Source of the DNA: Opitutaceae bacterium
Lineage (GTDB): Bacteria; Verrucomicrobiota; Verrucomicrobiia; Opitutales; Opitutaceae
DNA: 64,000 nt
Reading direction: 5' to 3'
Assembly: GCA_027490995.1 (NCBI GenBank)
Contig: JAIXWY010000011.1
Location: 682,001-746,000 of the forward strand
The notes below the pieces were generated by a model. That model did no database searches. It had not been told where the DNA came from and saw nothing but the letters and a program-made list of their open reading frames with translations. Both the position numbers and the translations under genes were made by a program. Below are positions 38,614-41,914 of this stretch, piece by piece (position 1 is the stretch's first letter; the number at the start of each line of letters is the position of its first letter).

Positions 38614-39098
38614 AATTTCGCGTTCTCGCCACCGGTGGCACCATCGACAAGATCTACTTCGATGCCGCCAGTACCTACGAAGTCGGCGAACCTCAGGTCG
38701 CGCCGCTTCTCCGCGAGGCGAACGTGACGCTGGACTACGTGGTCGAGTCGGTCCTGCAAAAGGACAGTCTCGCCATGACGCCCGAGGACCGCGCGCTGGT
38801 CCGAGCCCGGGTCATCGCCGCACCCGAGACACACCTTCTCATCACTCACGGCACCGACACGATGACCGACACGGCGAAGGAACTCGTGAACGTGGAGGGC
38901 AAGGTGATCGTGCTGACTGGGGCCATGCTGCCCGCGCGCTTCCGGTCCAGTGATGCACTCTTCAATCTGGGTTGCGCCATCGGCGCGCTGCAGGTGCTAA
39001 CGCCGGGGGTGTACATTGCCATGAACGGACGCATCGCACCCGCGGCAGCCGTGAAAAAGAACCGCGCGTTGAGTCGCTTCGAACCGAAGGAGGGTTAG
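38610..39098 (+). CDS. Single-domain asparaginase-like protein
   Basis: 162 residues from a GTG that overlaps the ABC ATPase stop (GTGA). It contains the asparaginase N-terminal signature LATGGTIDK (Thr11) and THGTDTM (Thr82, Asp83), then LTGAMLPARF. It ends where type I/II asparaginases would continue into a second domain, so it is about half length. Short proteins of this kind exist and are called asparaginase-domain proteins; activity has not, to my knowledge, been generally shown. The Thr/Thr-Asp residues are present, but a lysine equivalent to the third catalytic residue is not obvious. It is probably co-translated with the ATPase. Confidence 0.82.
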   Translation: MKFRVLATGGTIDKIYFDAASTYEVGEPQVAPLLREANVTLDYVVESVLQKDSLAMTPEDRALVRARVIAAPETHLLITHGTDTMTDTAKELVNVEGKVIVLTGAMLPARFRSSDALFNLGCAIGALQVLTPGVYIAMNGRIAPAAAVKKNRALSRFEPKEG

Positions 39099-39865
39099 CG
39101 CTCGAGGAGGCGGCGGCTGGCGCGCGCCCCGGAGCAGGCGATGGCTTCGAGCCAAAGCACACCCAGACCGACCGGCACGTTCCGACGCTCGGGCCGGACA
39201 CGCAGATGAAGTGAGTGGTCCGTCGGCGAGGCTTCGAGCCACCCCCAACCGTTGGGAACGTCACCGGCGTCGATGATGCCCGGCGCCGTCACGAGATACA
39301 GGTGATCAGCCACGCTATACCGATGCAGTCGTGCGAACTTCACCCGGTGAATCAAGCGCCGCTGCAGGCTCTGCACTTCCCTCTCCAGACGCTCAAGAGT
39401 CGCGTGGCGAAGTCCCCGCAGGTCCACGTCGTCCCACTCTGGAAACAGACCTACGCCTCGCCGCAAGTCGGGCCGATGTCCGCCAATCGTCTCCCGCAGG
39501 GTCCGCAACCGATCGGCCAAGGCCAGCGCCGTCCGACGCACCTCCGGCTCATCCGCTTCATCCCGCAGGAAGTCTGCCCGCGATTGCTTGCACTCAAAGA
39601 TCGCGACCGTCCCTGCGCCCGTCGAAAGGCCCCGCGTCGCGGCCACCACGTCCGCGCGGTAGGGACTGCGCGGGACGCGCACCTCGCAGGCCGCGATCAC
39701 AAGGTCGCGCTCCCGTGCCCAGGACAATGCCTGCAGCTTCAGCGCCCGATGGCCGCGGGACTCGCCGCACGGGGAGCCAGTGTCCCGGCGGCACGTTGAC
39801 TCGAGCACTCCCGGATCAGCCACCTTGCTCACCACAGTCGGCCCGTGGCCCCCAGTTGATGACAC
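39095..39865 (-). CDS. MmcB-like PD-(D/E)XK nuclease-fold protein
   Basis: 256 residues from GTG 39865; the real start may be inside, since the first 35 residues are low in structure. The core pattern RADVVAATRG then AIFECKQSRADF gives Asp72, Glu91 and Lys93 in the spacing of a PD-(D/E)XK nuclease, and the ECKxSRADF wording matches MmcB-family DNA repair proteins. A later ADHLYLVTAPGIID block, with DVPNGWGWLEAS, is also in keeping. It lies behind lexA on the same strand (145-base gap), so SOS control is plausible. Its stop overlaps the asparaginase stop. Confidence 0.65.
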   Translation of the reverse strand: MSSTGGHGPTVVSKVADPGVLESTCRRDTGSPCGESRGHRALKLQALSWARERDLVIAACEVRVPRSPYRADVVAATRGLSTGAGTVAIFECKQSRADFLRDEADEPEVRRTALALADRLRTLRETIGGHRPDLRRGVGLFPEWDDVDLRGLRHATLERLEREVQSLQRRLIHRVKFARLHRYSVADHLYLVTAPGIIDAGDVPNGWGWLEASPTDHSLHLRVRPERRNVPVGLGVLWLEAIACSGARASRRLLER

Positions 39866-40010: not shown

Positions 40011-40634
40011 TCAGCGCGATCCCCGCCGCAAGAGGCCGACCAGCACCCCTTGCGCCTCAAGTTGCTCCGCCGGGATCAGGTCTGGGTACGCTGGGTTCTC
40101 AGCACGAAGAATCGCCCGCCCATCGACCCGCTCAAACCGCTTCAGCGTCGTCGCCCCGTCAATCAGGGCCGCCACGATCTCCCCCGGGCGAGGTTCACGG
40201 CTCTCGAACAATCCAATGTCACCCGGACAAATGTGCGCTCCGATCATCGAGTCGCCCTTGATCTCAAGCGCCCAGACCCGAGACCGGGCGGCATGCGTGA
40301 TCCCAAACACCGACGGATCCACGCCCACGCAGCCCAGCGAGTCCTGAGCCTCTGCCGACGGCAAGCCCGCCGGAATACTGCCGAAGATCGCGACGTCGAT
40401 CAGTGCCTGCACCTCGCGCGCGCGGCGCCCCCATGAGCCGTCAGCGAGCTGCTCAATCGCCCCCTTGGCCGCCAACGCCCTGAGGTGCCGAACAACGGAG
40501 GTCTGCGAACCAAAACCAAAACGCCGCTGAATCAGCCGCGTCGAAGGCGGCACGACATGGACCCGCTGGTACTCGCTGATGAAGCCGAGGATCTCCTCCT
40601 CGCGTAGGGAAAGCGCTCTGTTCATTTGAACCAT
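40011..40634 (-). CDS. lexA: LexA-like SOS repressor
   Basis: 207 residues from ATG 40634; an internal ATG at codon 4 (40625) is equally possible. An N-terminal winged helix (about 8-70, PPSTRLIQRRFGFGSQTSVVRHL) precedes an S24 peptidase domain. Self-cleavage would fall at Ala89-Gly90 (SIPAGLP), with Ser129 in KGDSMIG and Lys165 in TTLKRF as the catalytic dyad. It represses DNA-damage genes until RecA* triggers cleavage. Two identical-type inverted repeats cover its start, so it is surely autoregulated. The wing and length are typical of LexA rather than of a phage repressor. Confidence 0.9.
   Translation of the reverse strand: MVQMNRALSLREEEILGFISEYQRVHVVPPSTRLIQRRFGFGSQTSVVRHLRALAAKGAIEQLADGSWGRRAREVQALIDVAIFGSIPAGLPSAEAQDSLGCVGVDPSVFGITHAARSRVWALEIKGDSMIGAHICPGDIGLFESREPRPGEIVAALIDGATTLKRFERVDGRAILRAENPAYPDLIPAEQLEAQGVLVGLLRRGSR
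40620..40631. promoter_or_regulatory. LexA operator, proximal
   Basis: GTTCATTTGAAC, a perfect GTTCA-N2-TGAAC palindrome overlapping codons 2-5 of lexA. With the flanking T it reads TGTTC-N4-GAAC, the motif form I recall for verrucomicrobial LexA. Confidence 0.75.
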
Positions 40635-40635
40635 G

Positions 40636-40647
40636 GTTCACTTGAAC
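40636..40647. promoter_or_regulatory. LexA operator, distal
   Basis: GTTCACTTGAAC, the same palindrome with one central base changed, just upstream of the lexA ATG. Its centre is 16 bases from that of the proximal copy, so two dimers could sit on nearly the same DNA region. Confidence 0.8.
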
Positions 40648-40822
40648 ACACCCTCTAATCCCCCGCAAGTCTGATTCCTTTTTAACTGATTTAGAGATCC
40701 TTACAAAGCTTTAGCAGGTCTAACTCTTCGCGCAGGATGGGGTCTGGGCCTGCTCCGGGTGACGCTCCCGCCGGTGACTCGTGCCTCCGGGCGAAGGGAT
40801 CGCCGCTCGAACTCCGGCCCGC

Positions 40823-41914
40823 TCAGGAACGCGGTTGTCCCGTACTGGGAGAGGTCGACGACTCGGCGGCGGACTCCGAAGCGTGTGGCACTGCGCCATG
40901 GTGGGGATCACGCGCGTAGTGCTCGCGCAGGAGATCTCGACCGAAGTCACGTTCCGCGTCCCGCCACACCGCATGCACGTGGTTCGCGTTGTTCTGGGTG
41001 TTATCGTACTCGATCAAGAACGTTGGCCCCTGCACGCGGTAGTAGTGGCCCACCCCAGGTTCGAGGCCTCCGGCCCACGCAAAGTGAACGACACCCCATC
41101 CGGCCGCAGTGATGCGATCGAGGTCCGTCTGGGCGACGTCGGGCCGGTGACGGAAGACGTAGGCACGGACGATCTGCTTGAGTACGCGCTGCTGCGCTTC
41201 GGTCATCGCCGAAGCGGGCAGGCCCTCCGGCGCCGCCAGCGTGATTTGGCGCTGGTTAGTGGTGAGGATATCCGCCGGAGCCTTGATCGGAAGGATCGCA
41301 CGCGTGCGTTGTTCGGACGTGAGTGCACGGACCAGTTCACGGCCGAGATCCTCCAACTCGCCGAGCGCGCGGAGACCCTTGCGTGGACCAGACCGGACTT
41401 CGGCGGGGTTGGCTCCGAAGAACGAGGGCGTCGTCGCGATCGCCTGACCCGCCACCAGCGTGAAGTTGACCGAGAGATGGTGCCCCTCCACCCGCCACCC
41501 CCACTCCCCATGCTCCGAGGGCTCACCGAAAAGGGTCACGGTGTAGAGCCCGGCATCGCGGTGGGAACGTCCCTCGATCTCGAAGAGCACCTGCTCAAGA
41601 CTCATGATGGCCTCGGCCTGCTCCCAGCCGCGCTCGCTCAGGCCGGCCCGGAGCAACGCGATGGCTCGCTCCCGCTGCAGCGGACTCAGGTCCTTGAAGC
41701 GAAGCCCGTTCCTCTCCCGTGGAACGTAGTGCCAATTCTCGCGTTCGGCGTCCGCCAGTCGGTACACCACGCGCTTCCTCTCCGCGGCATCGAGCGACCC
41801 GAGGAAGGCGAGCGCGGCCTCCGTGAGGTCCTTGGCCGCCGAATGCGCGCCGAGGATTGAACCCGTCATCACCATCAGGCCCAGATGCAGGAGAAGCCGT
41901 AGGGACCGAACCAT
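40823..41914 (-). CDS. DUF3500 family exported protein
   Basis: 363 residues with a signal peptide (about 1-26, hydrophobic LLLHLGLMVMTGSILG). The body matches DUF3500: WHYVPRERNGLRF near residue 62, GWRVEGHHLSVNFTLV, and the C-terminal signature FLIEYDNTQNNANHVHAVWRD then DFGRDLLREHY. The His-rich conserved positions suggest a metal or ligand site, but the biochemical role of the family is not known to me. It lies upstream of lexA on the same strand, separated by 190 bases, and divergent from the antiporter. Confidence 0.85.
   Translation of the reverse strand: MVRSLRLLLHLGLMVMTGSILGAHSAAKDLTEAALAFLGSLDAAERKRVVYRLADAERENWHYVPRERNGLRFKDLSPLQRERAIALLRAGLSERGWEQAEAIMSLEQVLFEIEGRSHRDAGLYTVTLFGEPSEHGEWGWRVEGHHLSVNFTLVAGQAIATTPSFFGANPAEVRSGPRKGLRALGELEDLGRELVRALTSEQRTRAILPIKAPADILTTNQRQITLAAPEGLPASAMTEAQQRVLKQIVRAYVFRHRPDVAQTDLDRITAAGWGVVHFAWAGGLEPGVGHYYRVQGPTFLIEYDNTQNNANHVHAVWRDAERDFGRDLLREHYARDPHHGAVPHASESAAESSTSPSTGQPRS

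Follow-up and report, generated by a model that had tools for sequence, protein, structure and literature searches.

The window, by which we mean the whole 64-kb stretch of DNA analysed, corresponds to positions 682001-746000 of contig C14 in a 3.47-Mb genome assembled in 15 contigs (G000). On its minus strand lies lexA1 (40011..40634), which encodes a protein of 207 aa. The identification of this gene as lexA in the initial annotation is borne out by two Pfam domains of its product, LexA_DNA_bind (44.2 bits) and Peptidase_S24 (63.9 bits), both above their cut-offs; against the NCBIfam model TIGR00498, the product scored 108.5 bits, 2.4 below the equivalog cut-off of 110.95. Inspecting the translation by eye, we read the Ala-Gly in FGSIPAGLP as a candidate cleavage site, and the Ser in KGDSMIG and the Lys in TTLKRF as a candidate Ser/Lys dyad. 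The closest named LexA records stem from Opitutaceae and Verrucomicrobia MAGs (L070, 96%; L075, 89%; L071, 67%; L072, 61%). Upstream of lexA1 is a DUF3500 gene (40823..41914, minus strand; PF12006, 312 bits) that holds the same position in the related genomes G004, G003, G009 and G002 and has no known role in the mechanism considered below. Downstream lies a gene for a predicted PD-(D/E)XK-like protein with an MmcB-like fold (39098..39865, minus strand; the start is approximate, and the conserved part runs from about 39763 downward).

Two candidate LexA boxes straddle the lexA1 start codon (ATG, 40634-40632, minus strand). The upstream box, GTTCAAGTGAAC (40636..40647, minus strand), stops one base short of the ATG, and the downstream box, GTTCAAATGAAC (40620..40631, minus strand), constitutes codons 2-5 and contains a second in-frame ATG at codon 4. 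The coding strand therefore reads GTTCAAGTGAAC-C-ATG-GTTCAAATGAAC, and the stretch over the start is TGTTCAAGTGAACC-ATG-GTTCAAATGAACA. Both boxes have the exact GTTC-N4-GAAC core and lie 16 bases apart from start to start, confirming the pair described in the initial annotation. The outer T or A of the longer palindrome TGTTC-N4-GAACA is present on one side only of each box, leaving one mismatch each. Between them, the two boxes form a composite, GAAC-CATG-GTTC, with the half-sites in reverse order and the ATG at its centre (40628..40639, minus strand).

The LexA1 lineage was present in five of the ten genomes of the genus that we compared, at 62-100% identity. A 24-column block across the boxes and the start codon, TGAACCATGGTTCAAATGAACAGA, is invariant in G000, G004 and G003, as is a CTTGC about 30 nt 5' of the ATG; the remaining DNA upstream of lexA1 has diverged among the three. 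The upstream box retains its GTTC and GAAC in G004 and G003, and the half-site TGTTC is kept in all three genomes, with an altered box spacer in G003. The downstream box is invariant in G004 and G003 and is found in G009 too. The spacing of the pair is 16 bp in G004 and G003 and 15 bp in G009, where both boxes lie 5' of the ATG that opens the conserved frame; the lexA gene of G002 has a single strict box.

We analysed 77 lexA loci chosen by similarity to LexA1, near-copies included. Counted from the first conserved residue, 28 of them show the strict core within the interval from -75 to +12, and seven of these 28 have another strict box at a distance of 15 or 16 bp. This recurrence and the conservation in sister species support the proposal of the initial annotation that the boxes are LexA operators of the verrucomicrobial type. 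At the same place, other lexA genes have the palindromes CTGMTC-N4-GAKCAG, TGTCC-N4-GGACA, TTGTC-N4-GACAA, CACTC-N4-GAGTG or GTTC-N2-GAAC, and the putative operator type tends to track the recognition helix of the protein. Among 25 loci with the LexA1-like 'SQT' helix, 16 have GTTC-N4-GAAC, six have GTTC-N2-GAAC and three have no palindrome that we found; with 'SSN' helices, CTGMTC occurs in four of five. Operator labels placed on the LexA tree required 17 changes versus 41.2 in shuffles, a difference to which kinship and near-copies contribute. The shortened palindrome TAGTGTTCATGAACACTA (GTTC-N2-GAAC) has the ATG exactly at its centre, 37 nt 3' of a TTGACA, at L032 and L076-L080, whose six LexA proteins form one well-supported clade. 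A distant LexA-like group (L128, L129, L134 and L254) has a TACCGTAT-type palindrome 5' of the start in three of four cases, as judged by the search pattern applied.

The genome encodes a second LexA, LexA2 (C14:774401-775009), which is 48% identical to LexA1 and falls in a different clade of the tree. lexA2 is followed by genes for ImuA-like, ImuB-like (Y-family) and DnaE2 proteins, the ImuA match being below the curated cut-off, and its own box, TGTTCATTTGTACA (TGTTC-N4-GTACA), is one base off the consensus and ends three bases 5' of the ATG. Within the genus, for which some genomes are incomplete, lineage A comprises LexA1 and lineage B the LexA of the cassette. A and B occur together in G000, G003, G004 and G009, and A with a lineage C in G002; B occurs alone in G001 and C alone in G005-G008. 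The lexA genes at L038-L040 and L042 (G005-G008) and at L069 (G010) belong to this third LexA lineage; in place of GTTC boxes, their starts are overlain by palindromes of the CTGMTC and TGTCC types, arranged in tandem at a distance of 18 bp.

The presence of two LexA proteins raises the possibility that LexA2 is the main repressor of lexA1, or that both proteins share the boxes and thus one regulon. One half-site of the lexA2 box is identical to that of the lexA1 boxes, and five of nine relatives of LexA2 with 'SPF' helices have GTTC-N4-GAAC operators. However, the recognition helices of LexA1 and LexA2 differ, and in all five rows of the lexA2 clade from this genus, one half of the box remains GTAC. 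We regard control of lexA1 by LexA2, alone or shared, as conceivable but unlikely.

The position of an operator within the first codons may reflect where the transcript begins. A candidate -35 element, TTGCGG (40663..40668, minus strand), is located 34 nt 5' of the first ATG and 43 nt from codon 4. TTG(A/C) occurs 34-37 nt 5' of a start codon at 24 of 51 non-redundant lexA loci, compared with 0-10 loci for other 4-nt windows; the 34-37 window was picked after viewing the first set, and several starts per locus were allowed in all windows. The comparison omits L257, a duplicate of L047 in both genome and gene, and loci with too short an upstream sequence, including L045. Among 13 held-out loci, mostly from other families of the order, six had the element at 38-41 nt, four at 34-37 nt and 0-3 elsewhere. 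By the spacing rule for sigma-70 promoters, a TTG 34-37 nt upstream would place the transcript start at the ATG, and the held-out peak at 38-41 nt would correspond to a leader of a few bases. G009 does not fit this geometry, as its in-frame ATG lies 52 nt from the TTG. Positions -12 to -7 upstream of lexA1 form a poor -10 element by eye, and a scan for sigma-70 promoters upstream of the gene, including its AT-rich stretch, returned none.

Verrucomicrobia bacterium IMCC26134 and Akkermansia are classed as 'SD-scarce' in PMC10783764, which makes it plausible that translation can start without a Shine-Dalgarno sequence; PMC10783764 also defines leaderless mRNAs as those with a 5' leader of < 8 nt. 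In our tree, the LexA of IMCC26134 groups with LexA1. We consider it probable that lexA1 has a leader of 0-10 nt, with the transcript starting at or near the ATG. Among open-access articles, judged by title and the start of the abstract, we found nothing that combines a leaderless lexA mRNA with an operator, and the match for LexA and the SOS response in Opitut- taxa concerned dif sites.

For the box in codons 2-5, the initial annotation had offered two explanations, a road-block or translation from codon 4. Both stand as rivals, although this pair of options omits a nearly leaderless mRNA with the operator as its -10/+1 region. If translation began at codon 4, within the second box, the boxes would lie upstream of and at the start, and the leader would be about 9 nt. 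Many relatives do begin at the equivalent position, with 12 nt between start and first conserved residue, and TTGCGG would then be 43 nt away; by contrast, the 34 nt that separate TTGCGG from the first ATG are the commoner spacing. Codons 1-4 are also unchanged in G004 and G003, which speaks against a start at codon 4, although the operator alone could account for this conservation. On balance, we regard initiation at codon 4 as unlikely, if still credible.

A road-block would entail a promoter in the AT-rich stretch at about 40670-40720, a leader several tens of nucleotides long and a LexA that stops the elongating polymerase. G000, G004 and G003 all share the AT-richness of this stretch, and there is no good -10 element beside TTGCGG. 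Yet the promoter scan of this stretch was empty too, its composition may reflect an UP element, and the spacing between TTG(A/C) and the start recurs over lexA loci. We therefore view a road-block as a doubtful explanation and favour a transcript that starts at or just before the ATG, which is most likely why the boxes straddle it.

Apart from the lexA1 pair, the window contains no GTTC-N4-GAAC. Two such sites in 64 kb are unremarkable as a number (1.07 expected; at least two in 32 of 100 shuffles). By contrast, when 40501-40800 was shuffled 20,000 times with its dinucleotides preserved, two boxes within these 300 nt never arose, and at least one box arose in 133 shuffles. It is the closeness of the boxes, and not their number in 64 kb, that is remarkable. 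Genome-wide, exact GTTC-N4-GAAC occurs at 32 sites versus 21 for a reversed-pattern control, suggesting that most single sites are due to chance. Despite this background, it is extremely improbable that the lexA1 boxes are themselves chance palindromes of a GC-rich genome, given the outcome of the local shuffles and the conservation of the pair in sister species.

The motif is narrowly distributed in G000. Outside lexA1 there are 30 exact sites. A codon-position-GC rule, applied to frames with a minimum length of 150 aa, places 27 of them within such frames; three sites fail this rule, two of them (L012 and L060) in long open frames and the third, at L061, in an ambiguous setting. With one mismatch allowed, TGTTCNNNNGAACA was found at 34 sites versus 10 for the control, two at lexA1 and one at lexA2. 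Of the remaining 31, all except C9:87564 and C9:163013 are in long open frames (29 sites). The site at C9:87564 lies between frames. At C9:163013-163026 (L154), the one-mismatch sequence TGTTCCGATGAAGA sits over the likely ATG of a frame that resembles a universal stress protein by eye, probably by chance. With two mismatches, TGTTCANNTGAACA yielded 36 sites, in excess of the 7 for the control; 17 further two-mismatch sites that we inspected include none 5' of a recognised SOS gene. Judging genes by open frame and by eye, without a trained caller, and with sites of more mismatches escaping the search, we found no near-consensus site before recognised SOS genes of G000 other than lexA1 and the lexA2-imuA-imuB-dnaE2 cluster.

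The expectation in the initial annotation that similar boxes would mark further SOS genes thus held for the near-match at lexA2-imuA-imuB-dnaE2 and failed for recA, SRAP and the other recognised SOS genes. No box was found at recA in G000 or in nine of nine genomes of the genus that were read, and 2 of 22 recA loci read (30 fetched) have one, namely those of G013 and G031. Whether the lexA1 boxes are operators is independent of a box at recA; what recA bears on is the size of the regulon. G009 has two recA matches above the family cut-off, on C103 and C111, one of which was read. The SRAP gene of G000 is present and lacks a box, and the DUF5131 gene is absent from this genome. In G003 and G004, GTTCANNTGWAC occurs at lexA1 and lexA2 only. 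We read 18 loci around sites in sister genomes, covering part of the sites in G001 and G002. Among them, DUF5131 genes of G009 (L226) and G001 (L242) and an SRAP gene of G002 (L225) have a box in front, with the proteins identified by Pfam in G009 and G002 and by eye in G001. These occurrences also back the verrucomicrobial-type operator and support the box as a genuine SOS element of the genus. A TTGACC element is found shortly 5' of the DUF5131 start, with a geometry as at lexA. An exact GTTCAAGTGAAC follows a LacI-type gene at L231:1501-1512 (G009:C78), with no recognised gene after it.

The gene downstream of lexA1 has a homologue directly after lexA1 in all five genomes of the lineage (G000, G004, G003, G009 and G002); at the distant loci L025, L073, L074 and L103, no homologue was found after lexA within the reach of each locus. 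In the five sequences, D72, E91 and K93 (D...ExK) are invariant. The protein has no family in Pfam or NCBIfam (E 0.001) or in PADLOC, nor in Pfam at E values up to 5. Its predicted structure has a mean pLDDT of 59, and a Foldseek search with this model returned nothing below E 0.4. Structurally, the protein is closest to SPO1766 (3dnx), with a Z of 10.8 versus 7.8 for the next row and an rmsd of 3.4 over 125 residues; among the structural comparisons, this match surfaced only in a second-look alignment of Foldseek-ranked chains with this model of pLDDT 59. The sequence match to SPO1766, which we take to be an MmcB/DUF1052 protein, is not significant (E 0.41). The downstream product appears to be PD-(D/E)XK-like, with a modelled fold that best matches SPO1766. 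Between the lexA1 stop codon and this gene, G003 has 18 nt and G000 at least 145 nt, and G002 has 6 or 30 nt, depending on which start is chosen. An inverted repeat, CCCCCAGT...ACTGGGGG, lies at about 39837-39864 between lexA1 and the nuclease-like gene; it is absent from the aligned sequences of G004 and G003, and a terminator scan between the two genes found none. Co-transcription with lexA1, which we would expect for this gene, is less sure in G000 because of the longer gap and the inverted repeat.

As far as sequence can tell, the two lexA1 boxes are very likely LexA operators and lexA1 is autoregulated, self-repression being most likely because two probable LexA sites flank the gene's own start codon. 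In the standard scheme, LexA represses from its operator until DNA damage triggers its self-cleavage and release. At lexA1, LexA1, and possibly LexA2 too, would bind both boxes as dimers, which would cover the -10/+1 region together with the start codon and so exclude RNA polymerase, shutting off lexA1 and the downstream MmcB-like nuclease gene together. DNA damage would release both genes through RecA-stimulated self-cleavage of LexA. With a transcript that begins at the ATG or a few bases 5' of it, the box in codons 2-5 would be an ordinary -10/+1/+15 operator. Binding, repression, the operon, the transcript start and cleavage are what we infer for this locus; what we observe is the sequence and its conservation, the presence of LexA2, a motif of restricted distribution and a conserved downstream gene. 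Pointing against this reading are the absence of boxes at recA and SRAP, the one strict box in G002 and the score of LexA1 below the NCBIfam cut-off. For an uncultured group of Verrucomicrobia, the locus is a clear example in which LexA probably regulates its own gene, and it offers a reason for an operator within the first codons. The combination of two LexA proteins with a recA gene that lacks a box suggests that the SOS response has shrunk to one nuclease plus a mutagenesis cassette.

For Verrucomicrobia, Erill et al. reportedly described in 2016 a LexA motif of the form TGTTC-N4-GAACA, and reportedly also tandem sites in verrucomicrobial lexA promoters that create other LexA motifs. The lexA1 boxes share the core, the spacing and the location at lexA with this motif, whereas on the inner side of each box the outer T or A is missing. 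Also unlike that description, the boxes here lie on either side of the start codon, none is found at recA, and a second LexA is present. The pair is very probably a verrucomicrobial LexA operator in tandem, and as such of a known kind, with an unusual placement at the start codon. This placement, taken together with two LexA lineages, a recA without a box and a nuclease-like gene, goes somewhat beyond the ordinary. The 2016 motif study is cited in PMC8565304 and PMC7739468.

In Caulobacter, MmcB is an SOS-regulated PD-(D/E)XK endonuclease, according to PMC9578287. The downstream protein appears to resemble it in PD-(D/E)XK-like residues and predicted fold and in having its gene beside lexA; it differs in having no Pfam or NCBIfam family match. 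Pseudomonas putida, as summarized in PMC3901139 and PMC5261740, has a second LexA heading a lexA2-imuA-imuB-imuC cassette. Our genome likewise has two LexA proteins, one of which leads an ImuABC cassette, although in another phylum, and the operators here are one core base apart, which need not imply separate regulons.

Finally, a change of LexA motif has been modelled as duplication and replacement in PMC8565304. Tentatively, and with less than even confidence, the locus and its relatives could be read together in these terms: lexA may be leaderless across the order, with the operator in the start codon, in a genus that keeps, loses or swaps LexA paralogues, and G000 may be a living intermediate of the duplication model. 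In such a genus, operators might have shifted from one half-site to another, GTTC and CTGMTC within the genus and TGTCC in a related one, the 16-bp tandem creating a motif of reverse order between its boxes; LexA1 might control itself and the MmcB-like nuclease, and LexA2 itself and the ImuABC mutasome, with recA outside. The likeness to the model is that one genus has three LexA lineages, single or paired, with different putative operators. The difference is that the case here is found among congeneric genomes, whose paralogues may or may not bind different DNA. As the three lineages have different palindromes, the route of duplication, divergence and replacement becomes testable among close relatives.
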